Shown: positions 20,703-51,362 of the stretch, one piece after another
Layout: each line of letters opens with the position of its first letter
How positions within the stretch are numbered: the stretch's first letter is position 1
Source: Lytechinus variegatus
Lineage: Eukaryota > Echinodermata > Echinoidea > Temnopleuroida > Toxopneustidae
DNA length: 64,000 nucleotides
Assembly (NCBI RefSeq): GCF_018143015.1
Contig: NC_054748.1
Coordinates: 18,862,225-18,926,224 of the forward strand
Reading direction: 5' to 3'
Made by a program: the position numbers and the translations under genes
The notes under the pieces: model-generated
What the model was told of the DNA's origin: nothing
Databases searched by the model: none
The model's input: the letters and a program-made list of their open reading frames with translations, nothing else

Positions 20703-23700
20703 CTAACATAGAAGACAAGAAGAAATCAAAATGTTTTCATTTTAAATAAGGGTTTGGTACTGCAAAATCGTAAAATAGCTTTAAAACAAACATACTGAAG
20801 CATTTCGACATGCACTCATCGGAGTTTTGGTCATTTGCGCATGCTTGAGGCAGCCTTAATCCAGCTAACATATCTGATTCTGTGCCGCCAGAAGAAGTTT
20901 CTAAGAACCCTTGCGTTATTTTAGTTGCTTCGCTTCAATATACGGCTGGTAACAAGCCTAACTTGTTTACTTTAGAGTCAATCATGGCTCGTCCATTGTC
21001 TAGTTTTGGTTCTGTTAAATATATTGCTTTGCCCTCGCGTTTCGGTCATTCATGCGATGGTGAGTACATGTCGAAAAGCTTCAGTATGTCTGTTTTTAAA
21101 GCTATTTTACGTTTTTATTTTAGTATCATTTCACAGGCTTTCAAACTCATTCTCCTAACTTACTATCTCATTCCAACTTACCGAATGAAGTTACAAGGGG
21201 GGGGGCTGTTGTAGGCTACTGTAATCCTTGCATCTGATTGGCTGTTGCAAGCTACTGTAATCCTTGCATGTGATTGGCTGTTGCAAGCTACTGTAATCCT
21301 TGCATGTGATTGGCTGTTGCAAGCTACTGTAATCCTTGCATGTGATTGGCTGTTGCAAGCTACTGTAATCCTTGCATCTGATTGGCTGTTGCAAGCTACT
21401 GTAATCCTTGCATGTGATTGGCTGTTGCAAGCTACTGTAATCCTTGCATGTGATTGGCTGTTGCAAGCTACTGTAATCCTTGCATCTGATTGGCTGTTGC
21501 AAGCTACTGTAATCCTTGCATGTGATTGGCTGTTGTAGGCTACTGTAATCCTTGCATGTGATTGGCTGTTGCAAGCTACTGTAATCCTTGCATGTGATTG
21601 GCTGTTGCAAGCTACTGTAATCTTTGCATCTGATTGGCTGTTGTAGGCTACTGTAATCCTTGCATGTGATTGGCTATGAGAAACTTGGTCAGTGAAAATT
21701 CCTGACAAACTCTCCATGAAATGGATTAACTGGCATTCCCAAGAAGAATTTCAGTAGACTATGCAACCCAAATATAAACATCAGCATCAACACCAAACAT
21801 CAGCATCAACACCAAACACCGGCATCAACATCAGCATCAACACCAAACATCGGCATCAACACCAAACATCAGCATCAACACCAAACATCAGCATCAACAC
21901 CAAACACCGGCATCAACACCAAACATCAGCATCAACACCAAACATCAGCATCAACACCAAACATCAGCATCAACACCAAACACCGGCATCAACATCAGCA
22001 TCAACACCAAACACTGGCATCAACATCAGCATCAACACCAAACACCGGCATCAACACGGACATCAGAATTGTATGAGCCTACAATCTTTTCAAAATATGT
22101 AGGGTGTGATAGGTCATGGTTTACAAAACATACAAATACATCCAATCACTTCATATACCATGGGTGGTGTTAGGTTTGGTGCTAAATATTGGTTTTCAAC
22201 CAAATTTTACTTCAGCAAAGTACTAAAATTAAAGATAGGACTTGGAGGAAATCTTACTCGGTGTTGAGAACCCTATAAATGCCACTGTGACCATGTTCTG
22301 TAAACTCAGATTAGGTATTTGTCTTTTGAAGCTACAGGAAGGGAATTTAAAATTAACTACAAAAGTACCAACATCAGCCTCAACACAAACCCCAGCAACA
22401 AAATAAACACCAGCACTACCACCACCAATAATGTACACCAAAACCGATTCTAGCACTAACAGTATAACCAACACCAGCACCAACATCCACAAAAACACCA
22501 AATTCATAACTGCCTGGGTAGAATAAAACATTACCTTGGTACTCCCTTCAGCTACATCAGTTCCTATAGGTGGATCAGTGACTGTAGCACTTGGTAACTG
22601 AGTTATGTGTACAGTATGATAAGGACTGGATGATGTGTCTTCTGCAGCATCCACTTCACCAGGGTAGAGATCCAGTGCGGACAGTCTTCCCGTTGTTTCT
22701 GAAATCTCTGCAGTAGAAGAAAAAACAAGAAAAGTCCACATATTTAAGGGCTATATTGTGTCACTTGTTTGTCTATGGTTGCTATGCCAGGCAAACATTT
22801 ATATATGATCAGAATACACTTACATGGATGCAAAGCTGCACCAAATAAGCAGACGGGGAAAAGAGGAAAAAAAGTTTTAGAAATGTAGGTTTAATTATTT
22901 AACCTAAGCAGGAAATACTTTAAATGATTTAATTAGATTCTGAATTTTGTAAATTGGAAAACTAGAATTTAAACTTTAAAGCTAAATGAAAGTACTTGCA
23001 GTAAACACTGATTTCACGATCTCGAAAGTCTGTGAAACCAGGCTTAATTGTAACTTTATCATCGAGGTTCTAGATCTGGTACACTTACATAAACTGATCT
23101 CAGTGAAATCTAAGCCGAAAAATGTTCACACTGAAGATTACCCACACAGATAAGCGCACGTGGGACAGTGCATTGTTATTGCTTTGAATATTGGGCCGAC
23201 ATTTGACTCGAATCCTGTGCTTATTTGCTAATTTCTCAGCAATTACACAATTTCTTCCAGAATCCTTTGGCACATAATTTTTTATTCATACAAACAGACA
23301 CTTCTGTTATCATTTTATTGGATTCTATAAAAAGTATTTTTGAGATCATTACCACAACTGGCATTTATCTTTAATCAGCCTATTCTATTGAAATCATTAT
23401 GGTGTTGACACAAGACTTCATAGAATTCAGGGTGTTGAAAAAAAGCCCAATATGAGACTTACAAATTTGAGCATTTCTTGTAATAATTATACTCAGCTGG
23501 TAAGCTACGAAATTGGATGTGACTTGCATTATGCCTTTTATAGCATTCAAATTTGTTTTTCCAACTTCCTTGCACATATACACATTTTATCACACGACAG
23601 TGGGTGCTCATCCTAGTACGTAAGCGGGTGAATGAAGTGCACCTTTACCACCTTTGATCTGATAATATATATTGACTGTTGCGCCCTCTATATTTTGTGC

Positions 23701-36756: not shown

Positions 36757-39148
36757 CAGGGGCGGATCCAGGATTTTGAAATAGGGGGGGCGCCAGCGGC
36801 GAGGGAGCGAAGCGACCGAGCGGGGGGAGGGTGTGGGAGGGGGGATACCCCCCTCCCACGGCAAGGACTTTTTCAAAAAATCATGTCCAAAAGTCGTATT
36901 TTGAGAGCACCTTTAGAAGAAAAATGCACACTTAAATCACTGTAACTTCATGAATAAAAGACACATACTGACTCATTTAGGAGCTGGTTTCCAGTCACAA
37001 ACCGTATAAGTGGTCATTCAAAATATACATTTGGCAAAGGCTTTTCACTTGCTTGCATCGTGTGATTGAAACGTCAAATTTAAATGATACGAAACTGAGA
37101 CTTGTAATCGATAAGTTCCGAATAATCCATTCTGTTTATTGTCATTTGTGTATTTACATTGTGTGTTTCAAACGAGAATTGTTTAGTCGTATGGCAACAT
37201 GCATAAAATTTGGTTCTTTTTTCCCCAAAATGCACAGTAAATTGTTACAAACTACAGAAAAAAACGACATCATCTTCTGGTAATCAACCTTTTCCCTCGT
37301 ATTATTTTCAAATCATCTTCAATAATCCAGTCATTCTGCACAACCTCAAAGTAATATAATGCTTCTTATGGGGATTCTCATCATTTTTATTGTTTACGTT
37401 CAAAGTCTCTCATCGCGTTGCCATCTTAACTTATGACCAGCCAGGATGAAATTGTATTTATATTTATTTTAACATAAGATAATTAATTTTTACGAAGCAC
37501 TTGTTAAAACTATACCACAAATAATTAAATAAGGTCAATGATAAAATGCTAGAAAATACATGTAAGGAGCTTTGATATCCAGTCCATAATTGTATAAGTT
37601 ATAACTATCAGTGGCAGAAAATGTAAAATAAACCGAGGCTCGTCTTCGGTATACAGAGTTCAGAGGGCATTTTGTAAGCTTTTCATTTATGAAATTACAA
37701 CTTGTTTAGACCATGAATTCATATAGGCTTCCAATTTGATGTTTTTTCTACATGTTGAATCAATGTATACTAGCTTTCCAACCAACAAAGTAAATGTTGT
37801 AAACTGTATTGATTGCCTTCTGTTGGGCAAAGCTATTCCTGCCAACTTTGAGCTCAATCATGACTTTTATTTTTTAAGATGAAAATATGGAAAGTTTATT
37901 TATGCAAGACAAACGAAGAACAGACGAAATAGTGGAATTTAATTACTCACACTATAATATATAAGGGATATACTTTTAAAGCTCTGCACTATATCCGTTT
38001 GCTGCCTGTGCAAGTCTCGAGGTTCTGTGGGCATAGCCACAAAATATTATATACGTTTTTCGTAAGTGAAATACTTCAGTAAATAATTTGATAACGAATA
38101 TCACACCCAAATGTATTTCTATGACATGCATGATTAATTCAAGGAAGTTTTGCCGTACAATGCATTATCACCTAAGCGCGATTGGAGGAATGTTATGAGA
38201 ATGTCCCGCTTTAGATTTAATACCTATAGATTATCAAACATTAAAAATGGGGTAGGGGGGGGGGTTAATGTCACAATTTCTACTTTTTAACAATACACAA
38301 TGTGTCCTCGGGACGTTTTTCCCCAGCACGAAAGTATTTTTATTCTACCCCCAACCCCCACACCCCCCCCCCCCCGTCACATAAAATCTGCGCTCCTAAT
38401 TACGCTGACATAATAGCTGCCTATACACAGCAAACGCGGAGTGGGGTCGACTGGTGATTGAGAATATACAATTTTGCTCCTTGATAATTCGTTGGAATGA
38501 TTGCTTCGGCGAAACTTAGTTGGGGCGCCCTGGATAATATGCCTCTGAATCTACCAGAAAGTGTAAAAGTTAGTTTACATTAAATACAAATATGTCTGAC
38601 CTATACATTTCAGTGAAAACGTACATGACCAAGGCAGAATGATAATACTGCGCACGTGGCGCCCGATATAAGGCTTCATCTTTGAGTGAAGAATAATCTC
38701 GGGGATAGACATTATCATTCGCATCGTTGACACTTTCTCTCGCGATCTGTTACTTACAATTTACATGTATTTGTCATAAAGACGGACAAACGCATGTTAC
38801 AAAAAACACAAAATTTCGGGAAAAAATGATATCCAATCCAACATCTTCACACTGGTCACTGCACTGCAACTCCCGATTACAAGTGGTGCAACTTTCCAAC
38901 CAATCGACTTGCGCGCCCTGGAATTCCGGAATTTACATATTGCAATACAGTATGACAGAGGTGCATTTGTGCGAACACAAAGGCCATGAGCGTAAGTTAA
39001 AATATAGTTTTGACTAGATCTAGCCCTTGAAATTGACTACATTGTACCAATCCAGTAAATATAACCATCAAAAAAAAAAAAAAAAAAAAAATCCGGCGAA
39101 AATAGGGGGGGCGCGCGCCCGGGGCGCCCCCCTCTGGATCCGCCACTG
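36757..39148. mobile_element. 2392-bp DNA element, CAG..CTG ends, 5-bp duplication AAGCT
   Basis: The ends CAGGGGCGGATCCAGGATTT and GGCGCCCCCCTCTGGATCCG.. CCACTG are inverted over the first 16 bases; AAGCT flanks both sides (36752-36756, 39149-39153). It is about 97 percent identical to 48383-51362 where they align. No transposase frame is visible. Five-base duplications occur in some hAT groups and in Transib; the family is undecided. The left end also carries GCGAGGGAGCGAAGCGACCG. Confidence 0.88.
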
Positions 39149-42025: not shown

Positions 42026-42105
42026 TACGAATCCCATCAGAAGATGATTTTTTTTTCAATTTTGATTTCAGCCTTAAAGCCAGGGCCACGATGCAAACAG
42101 AAACC

Positions 42106-42151
42106 ATGAAGTCAGTTTTATTTTGGACCACTCTCATAACGGTGATTTCAG
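42106..42151 (+). CDS. Ly6 exon 1, signal peptide
   Basis: Fifteen codons plus one base, ending TCAG|GTTAGT. ACCATGA at 42106 is a better context than CACGATGC at 42091. An acceptor-like TTTCAG at 42065-42070 suggests a preceding 5' UTR exon. Confidence 0.8.
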
Positions 42152-42248
42152 GTTAGTAGTATAAATTTAATCGTGGTAATTAATACTATCATTATTACCG
42201 TAAATGAGGTCATCTTCTTCCTCCTCCTCCTTCTCCTCATCATCATCC

Positions 42249-42486: not shown

Positions 42487-45400
42487 CATCATCATCACCA
42501 TCATCATCATCCTCATCATCACCATCACCATCATCATCATCATAACATCATTCATCATCAGTATCATCATGATATTTTATCACAATCATCATTAATATCT
42601 TCATCGTGATTATTATAATTCATTATTATTATAATTAATATTATTGTTGCTGTCATTATAATTATTATTATTGTTGTTGTGAATCTATCATCACTGTATC
42701 ATCTCTACATGGTATAGTACTTAGTAATTGTAGTCTAATGACTAAAAAAAAGATTTTTTAAAAAGTTTTATGCAACAGGAGGCCTGTTGCATAAAACTTT
42801 TTTACCTGAGAAAACTCTGGTAAAAACTGAAAACTAAGGTTTGTCTGATTTCTGCCATTGACTTTAACACAGGGCAAAAACTCCGGTAAAAACAACCTGA
42901 GTTTTCTCAGGTAAAAAGTTTTATGCAACAGGCCTAGGTGTTTTCGCTTATTAACAATATAATGACATTAGGAGTCAAGGAAAACCAGGGGCCTGTTTCA
43001 TAAAGGACTTGCAACTGTTTTAACTTTGCCATTATGTCAACTACCATGGTAACAGGGCTCAGCAGCCAATCATATAATGTTTCCATGGTAGTTTCCGTAA
43101 TGGCAAAGTTACAACAGTTGCAACTCCTTTATGAAACGGGCCCTAAAATTGCTTGATAACTGATTCTGAGAACGTTTTACATTGATAGAAATAATACAAT
43201 AAAACCGCTTTGTTTTTTAAATAAAACACTGTTTACTGTATAAATATTGCAGTAGTTGTTTTTGCAGTTCTAAAAGTATTCATTCAAAATTAATTATTGA
43301 ATAATCAAACTTTGTTTTGTTAAATAGATACAGAGTTGTGTAAAAAAAAAATAAAGTTTTTTTTTTCTGTGAATTCGCATTGCAATTAACAATCCCTACT
43401 CTTTAACCCTTCTGCAGCTGTATGTGGTATCAACTGTTACAACTGCGAAGGGGACGAGTGCAGAGATCCATTTGACCCGGAAGGAATATCAACCACATGC
43501 CCGGGGTCATCGTTTCTACCAAACAATTTCTGCAGGGTGAGTTCCACATCTCATACACAGTGAAAAAAATAGCACAATGTTTAACGGGGTACTCCAGGCT
43601 GACATTACTCTAACAACAACTTGTTTAATCTTTTGTGTAATTTTTAAAACTAAAACCAAACACTAACACAATTTGTTTAAAAAAATTAAACAATTGTTTT
43701 AAAAGTTTAAACAGTAGTTGTTACAGTGACGGACTTTAACAACGTGCTTAAATTTTTAAACAGCGCTTTTACAGTGTAATGTTTAACCACAAATTTTGTT
43801 AAATTATGAACTGATCAACTATTGGTTACAAAAATCCCGATTCAATTTTGCATGCAACTTTGTTTAACCAACAGGTGGTATGTTCATATTTTAAACAACT
43901 TACAGGTTAGTTAAAAATTCTGGGAAAGTGGACACACTTGATTTACTATTTTAAAAAGTATTGGCAACTAACCCAGAGATGAATGTGTGTCCGAATGTCC
44001 CTGTAATGATAGCAAGATTTGCAATCAACAAAAATAATGGTGATAATAATTTTGCGAATCTCAACCAATAATAGTTTCGGTCTGGTTATATCGACTAAGT
44101 CATTTTCTAATATGACCAATCCTTCTTAGAGTTAGAGTGCATTAAAGATGAATCAAGAAACATAGTATAGTTAATGGATCAAAAGAATTTCAATATTTTA
44201 GAAGATGATATCGTCTAGGGCCACCGGAAATTACTTAATCTTTACCTTCTTGATATTTCAAACCGAAAGCCTTCTTTTTTTTTAATGTTCCCAAAAGTGC
44301 GCTTAAAGTGTTCATGTAGATGTTTTGCTTCCAACACGAACGCTATACCTGTCGCCTTTTTGAATGATTCTCCAAACACTTAATGCATTTCTTGTTCATG
44401 TTACCTAACCTGTATACGTCAATTAGAATATTTCTTGGATACATGTGGAGCGTTGTGGCCCTGTGGATAAGTCTTCTGACTTTGAAAAAGAGGGTCGTGG
44501 GTTCGAATCCCAGCCATGGCGTAATTTCCTTCAGCAAGAAATTTATCCACACTGTGCGGCACTCGACCCAGGTGAGGTGAATGGGTACCCAGCAGGATTA
44601 ATTCCTTGAATGCATGAGCGCTGACAGGCAGCTCGAGCTAAAGCCGGGGTAATAATAATAACAACGCGCCTCGGAATAGAATATTTCTAGAAAGATGGCG
44701 CTATATAAATGCTTATTATTATTATTATTACAAACAGCATAAAGAGTTTGAAGAAAAATTCAAAATGAGGCGGGTAAGCAAAAGAGCATAGCGACTGAAT
44801 ATCAGAAATCTCCATTCGTCTTACATGCAATTTTCTTTGAAGCAATAGTTGTTGGGTTTATGTTAATCAACCTAATATTTTGTTTTATTTTGTTTTATTG
44901 TACTGCTTTCTTTTTTTCTGCGATGACTTAACATTCGACATAAATATTTTTGATTCGGGTACACCATCGAAGATGGTGTTCGACGATAATATGTTGTTTT
45001 GGGCCTAATAATGTTTTGTGGGTCCATGCTTTCACAGGGGCTGCGGAGCGGTTTTCAAAGGGGGGGGGGGCTGAGCATGCAAAAAATCACAATCGTATTG
45101 TCATTTTTGCGTTTGTGTACATGGTTTTGGAAAAAAAAAGTCGGGGCTGAAGCCTCCAGCCCCCCCCCCCCCCGGTTCCGCGGCCCCTGTATAATTGACG
45201 ATGGTGTTCGACGATAATTTGTTGTTTGGGGCATGATGTCCGCCCATGCTTTCATCCCAAGCCCACTTCTCTTCTCTTCTTGTCACTCAGAAAACTGTTA
45301 CTGTCACTGGCACCACGGTGGTTCGGAGCTGTGGAACGAATGAACGAAACGAATGTACCCCAGGCTGCACCGAGAGTATGACCTGTACCTACTGCTGTGA

Positions 45401-45494
45401 ATACAATCTCTGTAATAGAGCAATCACCATGACAATAAACTTTGTTGCTATGGGAGTGGCTTCGGTGACAGCTCTCATCCTAACAAGACAATAG
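42106..45494 (+). CDS. Ly6/uPAR-domain (three-finger) GPI-anchored protein, three exons, about 122 aa
   Basis: Exons 42106-42151, 43418-43536, 45291-45494, all GT..AG, one frame. Residues 1-16 (MKSVLFWTTLITVISG) are a signal peptide. The mature part opens CGINCYNCEGDEC, has further cysteines TC, FC, SC, EC and GC, and closes with CTYCCEYNLCN, the CC....CN signature of the Ly6 fold (ten or more disulphide cysteines). It ends in a hydrophobic segment (INFVAMGVASVTALIL) and TRQ, typical of a GPI-attachment signal with cleavage near NRA. One-exon-per-part (signal, first finger, remainder) is the usual Ly6 layout. An in-frame upstream ATG at 42091 would add MQTET. Likely on the cell surface; ligand unknown. 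Downstream, its last coding segment is repeated seven times. Confidence 0.9.
42218..42546. repeat. (CAT)n / (ATC)n microsatellite, about 330 bp
   Basis: Nearly uninterrupted TCA triplets with CTC and TTA variants, in Ly6 intron 1 directly after the first exon; ATT-rich sequence continues to about 42690. Poly-Ile and poly-Met frames here are not genes. Confidence 0.95.
42782..42934. mobile_element. MITE with GGCCTGTTGCATAAAAC ends
   Basis: Ends GGCCTGTTGCATAAAACTTT and complement, extending through ACCTGAGAAAACTC. Just left, 42760-42779 is another right end (AAGTTTTATGCAACAGG) head to head with it, the remnant of a tandem neighbour. Ly6 intron 1. Confidence 0.85.
42989..43143. mobile_element. 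MITE with GGGCCTGTTTCATAAAGGA ends
   Basis: Long imperfect arms (GACTTGCAACTGTTTTAACT, CCATTATGTCAACTACCATG) leave a loop of about 35 bases that contains CAGCCAATCA. Ly6 intron 1. Confidence 0.85.
43418..43536 (+). CDS. Ly6 exon 2, first finger
   Basis: Between CTTCTGCAG and AGG|GTGAGT. AVCGINCYNCEGDECRDPFD, then TTCPGSSFLPNNFCR; six cysteines. Phase 1 in, 0 out. Confidence 0.9.
43554..43778. mobile_element. MITE with TACAC(A/T)GT ends
   Basis: The left end TACACAGTGAAAAAAATAGC and right end GCGCTTTTACAGTGTA are inverted; interior repeats of TTTAAACA type. Ly6 intron 2. Confidence 0.65.
44447..44730 (+). mobile_element. tRNA-derived SINE, full length
   Basis: A box-like TGGCCCTGTGG, perfect B box GGTTCGAATCC, body TTTCCTTCAGCAAGAAATTT.., CAGGTGAGGTGAATGGGTAC, a second part GCTCGAGCTAAAGCCGGGG, then GGCGCTATATAAATGC and an (ATT)n tail. 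It is in Ly6 intron 2, in the gene's sense. Confidence 0.88.
44966..45256. repeat. MITE bracketed by a direct repeat of about 70 bp
   Basis: The MITE (45034-45190) has ends CAGGGGCTGCGGAGCGG and CCGGTTCCGCGGCCCCTG with G/C runs inside. On its left, 44966-45033 reads GATGGTGTTCGACGATAAT.. to CCATGCTTTCA; on its right 45198-45256 repeats the same text. The right copy runs into the acceptor of Ly6 exon 3. Confidence 0.75.
45291..45494 (+). CDS. Ly6 exon 3, remaining fingers and GPI signal
   Basis: Acceptor CTTCTTGTCACTCAG. KTVTVTGTTVVRSCGTNERN.., PGCTESMTCTYCCEYNLCN, hydrophobic tail, TAG at 45492-45494. The final 75 bases are the founder-like unit of the downstream array. Confidence 0.9.
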   Translation, partial: KTVTVTGTTVVRSCGTNERNECTPGCTESMTCTYCCEYNLCNRAITMTINFVAMGVASVTALILTRQ

Positions 45495-45985
45495 AGGAAC
45501 TATCTTGACGGTAAACATTCTTGCTATTGGAGTGGCATCGATGACAGCTCTTCTATAAGACAGTCAATAGAGGAATCACCATGACAACTGTGTTGCTATG
45601 GGAGTGGCTTCGGTGGAAGCTCTGCTCTTAACCGAGGAACCAACATGACTATATGGGATTTGTTGCCATGGCAGCTCTCCTAACCGGAGAAAAAAATGAA
45701 TCACCATGACAATAAAGGTTTTTGCTATGGGAGTGGCCTTAATGACAACTCTCCTCTTAAGCAGACAGTAGAGGAACAATCTTGACAATAAACTTTGTTG
45801 CTATGGGAGTGGCTTCGGTGACTGCTTTCCTATAGAGGAACCACCTTGACAGAAAAAAACTTTGTTGCTGTGGGAGTGGCTTCGGACTGCGGTGACAGCA
45901 ATAGATTAACAACCTTGAAAATAAACTTTGTTGCTATGGACTGGGAGTGGCTTCGGCGACAATTCTTGTCTTAAAATTATATAAG
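45420..45985 (+). repeat. Array of eight units derived from the Ly6 GPI-signal coding segment
   Basis: Unit 1 (45420-45494) is coding and ends at the stop. Seven further units of about 55-80 bases follow, each with (A)GGAA..C..CTTGACA, CTTTGTTGCTATGGGAGTGG, CTTCGGTGACAGCTCT and often a TAG at the end. Several keep the reading of the hydrophobic tail with small indels. It lies in the 3' UTR or just beyond. Confidence 0.88.
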
Positions 45986-46382
45986 TTTAGGGGTAGGAAA
46001 TAATAGAAGTTCAAAGCAGCAAATCCAATCAACCAAAAGGGAAATAAGAGAAACTGGAAGAAGACGCAAACTTCGACAAGATACCGAAGAAGTCTGGTAG
46101 TGCACTGCTATTTTGCCTCAGTAAAACTTGAGATCACAATAATAATTTACATATTCAAATCAAGTAAAGTCAACCAATCAAAATAAAAGAAATGGAAGGA
46201 TTGAACTAAAATGTAAGAACCCAATTCATAAGATAAACCAATAGGAGTAAGGAGATGAAGATGTGTCTGGGTGATTATGGAAATGGAAACTGAAGAGACA
46301 GTTGAGGGATGGAGTGAGTGGAACACCTGAATGATAGAGGAAATGAAGATGACAAAAGAGAACGAGGAAAGGAATTCAGTGT

Positions 46383-46636
46383 ACACTGCAAAAACTCTGG
46401 TGTTGATTTAACACCAGCCGGGCATCCATATATGTCCACACCAGAGAAGTTTTAAACAAACAACACCAATTTCTTTTTTGGTCTATAACACCAGTTAGGT
46501 GTTTATGCAACACCAATTAGTATTAAAACAGCATCGGTTTGATTCCAAACTAGTGTTGTTTCAATACTTCTCCTAAGTTGACATATATGGATTCTGGGAT
46601 GGTGTTAAATCAACACCGGAGTTTTTGCAGTGTAGA
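46383..46636. mobile_element. MITE with ACACTGCAAAAACTC ends
   Basis: Ends ACACTGCAAAAACTCTGGTG and complement (TTTTTGCAGTGT), bordered by TA; inner GTTGATTTAACACC inverted. CATATATG occurs near both ends. Confidence 0.85.
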
Positions 46637-48382: not shown

Positions 48383-51362
48383 CAGGGGCGGATCCAGGAT
48401 TTTGAAATAGGGGGGGGGGCGCCAGCGGCGAGGGAGCGAAGCGACCGAGCGGGGGAGGGGGATACCCCCCTCCCACGGCAAGGACTTTTTCAAAAAATCA
48501 TGTCCAAAAGTCGTATTTTGAGAGCACCTTTAGAAGAAAAATGCACACTTAAATCACTGTAACTTCATGAATAAAAGACACATACTGACTCATTTAGGAG
48601 CTGGTTTCCAGTCACACACCGTATAAGCGGTCATTCAAAACATACATTTGGCAAAGGCTCTTCACTTGCTTGCATCGTGTGATTGAAACGTCAAATTTAA
48701 ATGATACGAAACTGAGACTTGTAATCGATAAGTTCCGAATAATCCATTCTGTTTATTGTTATTTGTGTATTTACATTGTGTGTTTCAAACGAGAATTGTT
48801 TAGTCGTATGACAACATGCATAAAATTTGGTTCTTTTTTCCCCAAAATGCACAGTAAATTGTTACAAACTACAGAAAAAAACGACATCATCTTCTGGTAA
48901 TCAACCTTTTCCCTCGTATTATTTTCAAATCATCTCCAATAATCCAGTCATTCTGCACAACCTCATTAACCTATATCAAACATTAAAAATGGGGTAAGGG
49001 GGGGGGGGTTAATGTCACAATTTCTACTTTTTAACAATACACAATGTGTCCTCGGGACGTTTTTCCCCAGCACGAAAGTATTTTTATTCTCCCCCCCAAC
49101 GGTCCAACCGCGTAGCCAGGATTTCATTTTGGAGGGGGCGGTAAATGCACGCGAAGCGTGCCAACACTTACAGAGCGCGCTCCATAGGGGGTGGGTGCAG
49201 GGAGGGGGAGATTCCCCCTCCCGCGCGAAGCGCGAAGCTTTTAGTGTTTCATAAATTAAAATGAAAAGGAGCCGTTTCTCTCGTCTCTAGTACCTCCAAT
49301 TCGGTTGACTATATTGCGATTTTGAACCTTGTTTTCAAAAGTGATTGTGAACGCACAAAAGAGGTATACAATGGATGAAATTAAAATGATAATAACTCCG
49401 CGCGAAGCGCGGAAGCTAAAGCGTTTTATCAATTTTTCTTGCCATAAAAAGGGTCCAGAGAAAAGGGTATTCTCAAAGATATATTGAATACTTTCTTTGG
49501 AAAGATCAGATTTGATTACAAACAATTGAGCAACAGTGCATATTTTTAACTCGCAAAACAGAGAAGATTGGTAGAGGAAGATATTCCTCCCCGCGCAGAG
49601 CAATGAAACCATGAAATTTCAAAGGGCTGACGTTTCATCAAATGTAGATATCTCTAATACCCAATCAGCTCTAATTCAATTGATTTTCTAAGATTATTGA
49701 ACTTCATTACAAGGAAATTAGTGAGCAAAAAGTTGAAACTTCTGTGATTTATTGAAATTATCTATCTATATAAAAAAAGATGCCTAATTTTTTTTACTTA
49801 TCCTGAAGCGCTTCATTTTGAATATGAAGAAACTTAAGTGTCATTCAAAATTTCAAACTGAGGGCGCAAAACAGGACAGGAGATGAATGTATACAGGGAA
49901 ATGACATGAAGATTAATACAATTTGAGTAAAAAGTATTGTACTTTTTTTATTTAATACGACACGAATTTCATACCTTCCTCTTTTTAAATTAGGAACCTG
50001 TTTGCCCCAAAATTATGGTTGTTTAATAATGAGCTGAAAAGCGGGAGAAGTTGACTTTATGGAGGTGACGGCAGAAACTGATATTAAGATTTTACCCGCT
50101 CGGGGCCGACCAGACCAGAAGTTGCGCGATCAATTTAAAAAAAAGATAACTTCATATATTTACTTCGGCCTAACCTTATATACCCAAATTCATGCCCTAA
50201 TGTATACAATTTTAACTTTAACTGGCAAGAAGCACATAGCTTAGGTGGAAAAACAGGGTTAGAGAAAAGGTGGGGGAAACAATGGAGAACTTCAATATTG
50301 TCATTTAACCGCGCGCAGCGCGGAAGCAAAATTCATATATAAATTTAGAGCAAGAAGAGTGAATTAAGGAGTTTCTCTTTTGAGAAAAAAATTAAGAATC
50401 AAAAGAAACAAAAAAAAACACAAAGCTACCTTTCTTTCCTTTCCTCCCTTCCCTTCTCCTTTTCTCCTCTCTTTTTTTTCCCTTCTTTTTTTCTTTTTGG
50501 GGACTTTTTTTTGGGGGGCGACCGCCCCCACCGCCCCCCTGGCTACGCGCCTGCGCCCAACCCCCACCCCCCGTCACATAAAATCTTCGCTCCTTACGCT
50601 GACATATAGCTGCCTATACACAGCAAACGCGGAGTGGGGTCGACTGGTGATTGAGAATATACAATTTTGCTCCTTTATAATTCGTTGGAATGATTGCTTC
50701 GGCGAAACTACTTAGTTGGGGCGCCCTGGATAATATGCCTCTGAATCTACCAGAAAGTGTAAAAGTTAGTTTACATTAAATACAAATATGTCTGACCTAT
50801 ACATTTCAGTGAAAACGTACATGACCAAGGCAGAATGATAATGCTGCGCACGTGGCGCCCGATATAGGGCTTCATCTTTGAGTGAAGAATAATCTCGGGG
50901 ATAGACATTATCATTCGCATCGTTGACACTTTCTCTCGCGATCTGTTACTTACAATTTACATGTATTTGCCATAAAGACGGACAAACGCATGTTACAAAA
51001 AACACAAAATTTCGGGAAAAAATGATATCCAATCCAACATCTTCACACTCATGACACTGGTCACTGCACTGCAACTCCCGATTACAAGTGGTGCAACTTT
51101 CCAACCAATCGACTTGCGCGCCCTGGAATTCCGGAATTTACATATTGCAATACAGTATGACAGAGGTGCATTTGTGCGAACACAAAGGCCATGAGCGTAA
51201 GTTAAAATATAGTCATGATAGTTTTGACTAGATCTAGCCCTTGAAATTGACTACATTGTACCAATCCAGTAAATATAACCATCCAAAAAAAAAAAAAAAA
51301 ATCCGGCGAAAATAGGGGGGGGGGGCGCGCGCCCGGGGCGCCCCCCTCTGGATCCGCCACTG
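48383..51362. mobile_element. Second copy of the 2.4-kb element, 2980 bp, duplication AATAA
   Basis: Same ends as 36757-39148 and flanked by AATAA (48378-48382, 51363-51367). Relative to copy 1 it lacks about 880 bases (37349-38230 of copy 1) at position 48966 and carries a nested insertion at about 49108-50556. Confidence 0.88.
49108..50556. mobile_element. Nested element with GCGTAGCCAGG ends, about 1.45 kb
   Basis: The left CGCGTAGCCAGGATTTC.. and right CCCCCCTGGCTACGCGCC are inverted. It is absent from copy 1 of the host element, which defines it. GCGCGAAGCGCG-type palindromes occur at 49149, 49220, 49399 and 50307. A homopyrimidine run lies at 50430-50500. No transposase. Confidence 0.75.

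Follow-up and report, generated by a model that had tools for sequence, protein, structure and literature searches.

Tandem Copies of an Anchor-Signal Segment behind the Stop Codon of a Ly6-like Gene in Lytechinus variegatus

Introduction

Ly6 proteins are reported to have repeatedly lost their membrane-anchoring region, the snake three-finger toxins included (PMC10421932). In the snake toxin genes exon 3 copies were duplicated and pseudogenised, while in human LY6K the third exon was duplicated twice; the authors propose that the anchor was more likely lost through exon duplication and a subsequent stop ahead of the anchor region (PMC10421932). Closer to the animal studied here, starfish Ly6/uPAR proteins such as Lystar5 are small, with a signal peptide, a single LU domain, and a glycosylphosphatidylinositol (GPI) site predicted at the C-terminus, and most of the 48 LU proteins reported for Asterias rubens have a GPI site (PMC11595613, PMC9410279). 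Here we describe a three-exon Ly6-like gene in a 64,000-nucleotide stretch of the Lytechinus variegatus genome (hereafter the window; contig C9, 18862225-18926224, within 869.6 Mb of sequence in 33 contigs), together with a tandem array of eight units (45414-45985) that spans its stop codon and was likely copied from its own coding 3' end.

The window gene shares with the snake toxins and LY6K the superfamily, the three-exon plan, and duplication at the anchor-bearing 3' exon. It differs from them in that the tandem copies comprise the anchor segment alone and follow the stop within the same exon, and in the apparent one-step hybrid tail of a paralogue. With the echinoderm three-finger proteins, compared by description, it shares small size, a likely signal peptide, one LU-type domain, and a predicted C-terminal GPI-type signal; the starfish Ly6-type passages make no mention of tail copies behind the stop (PMC11595613, PMC9410279). 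An earlier note on this DNA, made from the letters alone, knew of no description of such a case. That was too strong, since exon 3 duplication is on record for snake toxins and LY6K (PMC10421932); Ly6 genes are already known to duplicate at the end that bears the anchor, and the sub-exon tandem copies behind the stop are a variant of this. A literature search covering titles, the starts of abstracts, and few subscription papers found no paper in which the tail of a Ly6 gene is copied beyond its stop codon, and a search of titles and abstract starts gave nothing useful on GPI signals with extensions.

Minisatellites may arise from or overlap coding sequence, and their unit number shifts by slippage or unequal exchange. 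The array resembles such coding-derived minisatellites in having tandem units of tens of bases. It differs in that the stop lies within the units; the copies thereby stay non-coding, and a single unit contributes to the protein until an exchange takes place.

Results

The array consists of eight units of 61-86 nt, delimited by hand on the + strand. Tandem Repeats Finder reported a period of 76 with a score of 217 over 45414-45623, and a repeat search recovered a 47-nt core in seven copies (the reference and six others at 64-87% identity) and a 22-nt unit start, also in seven copies. No array with a period of at least 30 and a score of at least 50 appeared in 200 dinucleotide shuffles of 45201-46200. 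Three places in the window match a 28-nt core with at most three mismatches, perfectly at 45442 and 45795 and with three mismatches at 45590, against none expected; the shuffles and the core matches together exclude a chance origin. A search of the genome with the array DNA gave, within the caveats of that search, a single match and no array at unrelated loci lacking a Ly6 gene. The eight units with a common hydrophobic-tail text recognised in the earlier note are thus confirmed; its span, 45420..45985, ends correctly and begins 6 bases after the true start.

Unit 1 (45414..45489, 76 nt) is the coding unit and reads NRAITMTINFVAMGVASVTALILTR; it begins at the Asn of the CN motif and runs up to the TAG at 45492-45494, which lies in text common with the start of unit 2. 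The period of 76 equals 25 codons plus one base, so that the stop of unit 1 falls in the start text of unit 2, read in another frame: where unit 1 begins, AATAGAG is read as AAT-AGA, and where it ends, as CAA-TAG. Units 2-8 all lie behind the stop. By eye, the TAG is kept at five of the seven unit junctions and is absent before units 4 and 5, in line with the earlier observation that several units retain it at the same place.

In three of the copies behind the stop a hydrophobic tail can still be read in register. Unit 2 (45490..45565, 76 nt) reads NRGTILTVNILAIGVASMTALL and a stop; unit 5 (45691..45766, 76 nt) reads KK, a stop (TGA as third codon), then ITMTIKVFAMGVALMTTLLLSRQ and a second stop; and unit 6 (45767..45830, 64 nt) reads SRGTILTINFVAMGVASVTAFL and a stop. 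The other four of the seven carry frame-shifting internal insertions or deletions. Unit 3 (45566..45629, 64 nt) is shifted by an internal deletion, unit 4 (45630..45690, 61 nt) is frame-shifted and the most degraded, unit 7 (45831..45899, 69 nt) reads YRGTTLTEKNFVAVGVAS before a 7-nt insertion, and the last unit, unit 8 (45900..45985, 86 nt), has a 5-nt insertion and a ragged end. The frame directly behind the stop gives RNYLDGKHSCYWSGIDDSSSIRQSIEESP and a stop, with no anchor. Units 2-8 can be read as decaying 3' untranslated sequence.

The gene ahead of the array is readable on the + strand in three exons, with splice sites chosen by eye and phases of 1 and 0 that fit. A likely exon 1 (42106..42151), one of 15 candidate rows and matching exon 2 in its phase 1, encodes the putative signal peptide MKSVLFWTTLITVIS. 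Its donor, GTTAGT at 42152, was read by eye and lies outside the donor pattern of the candidate scan; a further in-frame ATG is found upstream, at 42091. Exon 2 (43418..43536) encodes AVCGINCYNCEGDECRDPFDPEGISTTCPGSSFLPNNFCR between an acceptor TGCAG and a donor GTGAGT, in phase 0. The terminal coding exon 3 (45291..45494), for which homologous exons were found in the genome, comprises KTVTVTGTTVVRSCGTNERNECTPGCTESMTCTYCCEYNLCN, the anchor signal, and the TAG; its full reading is KTVTVTGTTVVRSCGTNERNECTPGCTESMTCTYCCEYNLCNRAITMTINFVAMGVASVTALILTRQ, closing with CTYCCEYNLCNRAITMTINFVAMGVASVTALILTRQ-TAG.

The cysteines of exon 2 follow CYNC...C...C...C and those of exon 3 C...C...C...CxYCCEYNLCN, a pattern of the LU-domain type, which closes with CC-x(4)-CN or something similar. 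A cysteine pattern of this type is the defining mark of the Ly6/uPAR (LU, three-finger) family. C14, C22, C26, C32, C35, C36, C41, and N42 are invariant in eight exons, the window's and seven others. The exon plan is also of the Ly6 type, with a (likely) signal peptide exon, a first part, and a last part bearing the anchor. The predicted C-terminus is hydrophobic, the best 15-residue Kyte-Doolittle window scoring 2.15 and ending 2 residues before the protein end. Together these features suggest a Ly6/uPAR-like gene with a GPI-type signal. Cysteine pattern, CN domain end, and hydrophobic tail all fit the Ly6 gene proposed in the earlier note, and its view that the repeated piece is the GPI-signal segment is supported by unit 1.

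The direction of copying was examined in the paralogues. Each of two genome searches with terminal-exon peptides gave 21 matches; 3 in the first and 1 in the second belonged to the window gene or its units. They recovered homologous terminal exons, several on the same contig as the window gene. Aligned with unit 1, the tails of paralogues have their stop at the same position and are present as a single copy, for example STSFVAMGVALLGALIFSRQ in L003, SVSFVAMGVAMLVALIFSRQ in L005/L011, and TANIVAMGVAILVAYFLSRQ in L007. Because these paralogues carry a homologous tail as a single copy, the tail is older than the array. For a tree of units and tails nine paralogous tails were fetched, and L013, L040, and L047 were omitted as too distant; the eight units formed one clade against the six remaining tails with 98% support. 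Tails and tree agree in suggesting that the array was copied from the coding unit, a direction we regard as well supported.

By eye, TCACGTGA is common to L003, L005, L011, and L012 within ~30 nt behind the stop. In L005 it comes after AGAGGAA, like the unit start in the window, and could mark the site of a founding duplication.

A change of unit number was encountered in a pair of near-identical Ly6-like genes on opposite strands of contig C6, L040/L049 at 8.02 Mb (C6:8019500-8029400) and L043/L050 at 4.44 Mb (C6:4436500-4446400). L040 carries two units (77 nt, 94.8% identity). L043 is without exactly one unit, 175 bp, with both sides alike to L040, and its remaining unit is a hybrid that matches the first unit on its left side (AACAGCGCC) and the second unit on its right, the switch point lying in a stretch where both units are identical. 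The near-identity of the two copies extends ~700 nt to the left and ~800 nt to the right of the unit; beyond that, a difference of ~150 bp appears on the left, and repeats farther away differ as well. Both copies have uninterrupted exons 2 and 3. The predicted C-terminus changes from IAMMAALLLALGISR in L040 to IAMMAALLALEVKCTMVVHTLHVGLYISPCHSRLGI in L043, or in short form from ...AALLLALGISR to ...AALLALEVKCTMVVHTLHVGLYISPCHSRLGI, each followed by a stop. Consequently displaced, the most hydrophobic stretch ends 26 residues before the C-terminus in the hybrid, compared with 2 in the unrewritten form. A hydrophobic stretch far from the C-terminus should weaken or abolish GPI addition, and GPI addition to the predicted L043 tail should be affected in this manner.

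In L013, a relative on contig C17, a duplication (83% over 180 nt) has the same start point as that of L040. Because the two begin at the same point, the two-unit state is probably the older one and the one-unit state of L043 a loss. The earlier expectation that unequal exchange could alter the anchor therefore has one apparent instance, in the assembled DNA of a paralogue, and none in the window gene itself; the C6 pair is the chief evidence for the exchange model. To see what fusions in the window gene would encode, the exon was joined by script within unit 1 to each of units 2-8; unit 4 lacks the full core and was read at two join points. Every join gave a different C-terminus, from a short MTALL to an extension of ~30 residues, as expected of any such fusion.

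Other similar Ly6-like pairs exist in the assembly, mostly inverted and mostly megabases apart on one contig (seven pairs compared). L003/L004, L008/L009, L021/L022, and L047/L048 are 96.5-99% identical in the best aligned block. Such pairs fit uncollapsed haplotypes or young duplications.

To evaluate how general the arrangement is, 24 further Ly6-like terminal exons (17 + 5 + 2) were tested, 21 of them with a recognisable tail. Copies of the gene's own tail lie behind the stop in three of the 21 (L013, L040, and L016). L013 and L040 represent one event and L016 a separate one; the window gene brings the number of independent events to three. L016/L052 (C6, 25.229 Mb) has its own array of about four 58-nt units across tail and stop, which begins inside the signal and whose unit start is unlike that of the window array.

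At 17 of these loci, 52 of 798 other 80-nt segments (6.5%) have a nearby tandem copy, compared with 3 of 17 tails. By locus the background is 10/47 in L040, 4/47 in L013, and 1/47 in L016, copies of the arrays themselves included. We claim no enrichment, because the excess of tails over the local background is small and two of the three carriers stem from one duplication; tail copies are not clearly above local background in Ly6-like genes. The tail count took one gene from each of eight similar pairs, a choice made post hoc; the eight omitted members have no tail copy, and including them gives 3/29. Also outside the count are L018/L019, whose reading continues into a second region rich in cysteine, L055, L057, and L058, in which no tail could be recognised, and a weakly matching place at C2:80.09 Mb.

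Discussion

Taken together, these results make it quite probable that the array is a tandem amplification of the coding 3' end of a three-exon Ly6-like gene. In the proposed mechanism, a piece of ~76 nt, from the Asn of CN through the GPI-type signal to the TAG, would have been duplicated at matching short AATAGAG texts, the AAT-AGA codons at its start and CAA-TAG at its end. Because the copies landed behind an intact stop, the protein would have remained unchanged, and units 2-8 would now be decaying as 3' untranslated sequence. Deletion of a unit, or unequal exchange, could then join the coding unit to a decayed one and rewrite the C-terminus in one step. We infer from these observations how the array was founded, that it is neutral, and how anchoring is affected. 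The same genome holds both the starting material, tail copies behind the stop, and an apparent product, a hybrid tail after loss of one unit, which makes this route of anchor change testable.

A broader proposition is that tandem copies of the anchor segment beyond the stop form a recurrent reservoir of alternative Ly6-like C-termini in this animal group. We hold it to be rather unlikely on present evidence. If it is true, loss or exchange of a unit would switch, lengthen, or weaken the membrane anchor at once, and the C6 pair would be a live example, possibly two alleles of one individual.

The closest competitor agrees in part on how the array arose and differs on its consequence. It holds that an ordinary minisatellite process met a stop codon by chance, with no consequence for Ly6 evolution, and we give it somewhat less than an even chance. 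It gains from the commonness of local tandem copies (52/798 segments against 3/17, or 3/21, tails) and from the single duplication behind two of the three genes with tail copies, but the predicted protein end of L043 is changed, unless that reflects an assembly error or an unused copy. Another idea, in which an older minisatellite was exonised and became the source of the gene's anchor signal, was the second of two origins offered in the earlier note, the first being duplication from the coding unit, which paralogues and tree uphold. In its favour, the repeat exceeds the coding piece in length and the units have the hydrophobic text in common. Against it, the homologous tail with its stop is single-copy in the C9 and C8 paralogues, all units group in one clade, and the genome search with the array DNA gave, within its caveats, one place. 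We have rejected this origin as highly implausible.

The array could also be a working 3'-end device that provides several poly(A) sites, alternative ends, or read-through tails; we judge this improbable. AATAAA, a putative polyadenylation signal, occurs at 45434..45439 (+ strand) inside coding unit 1 and again in units 5 (45711), 6 (45787), and 8 (45920), that is, in four of the eight units, and by eye in none of the six paralogous tails of the tree. Units 2, 5, and 6, moreover, still encode the tail in register, and the codon-position comparison given below is compatible with constraint. However, the window is AT-rich and has 85 AATAAA on its + strand (1.33 per kb), and the four occurrences are copies of each other. 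The RNA fold of the array showed no excess of structure (z -0.79). Read directly past the stop, the sequence yields no anchor, and units 3, 4, 7, and 8 are frame-shifted.

Several points weigh against amplification of the coding 3' end and the consequence drawn from it. A tree with unit 1 outside units 2-8 was not rejected (approximately unbiased test, p 0.315), so that unit 1 need not have founded all the other units. Codon-position differences among units 1, 2, 5, and 6 were 30:20:31, summed pairwise over 63 nt (8:6:9 variable columns), and those among five coding tails (four paralogous tails and unit 1) were 90:55:114, summed pairwise, shapes so much alike that the test is non-discriminating; the neutrality of the array therefore rests on the insertions and deletions. 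Pfam gave no match for exon 3 alone or for exons 2 and 3 joined, and the best PDB matches, a prothrombin fragment (E 0.029) and receptor kinase R3 (0.12), were not significant, so that the Ly6 label rests on cysteine pattern, exon plan, and paralogues. The readings of the window gene come from the assembled DNA of one genome, and that assembly shows no unit-number variant of it. As for the C6 pair, a collapse in the assembly could explain the deletion in L043, and L040 and L043 may be duplicates and not alleles.

Additional Observations

Just downstream of the array, at 46382-46634, lies an inverted repeat with 81-nt arms that are 83% complementary and 91 nt apart, which resembles a small mobile element. 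An Rfam search had no hit that reached the gathering threshold. Elsewhere in the window, two near-identical open frames of 100 residues (ELVSSH.PYK...) at 36981-37283 and 48598-48900 probably belong to a dispersed repeat. At 21204-21675, 13 copies of a 36-bp unit with a 96% match are open in several frames on both strands.
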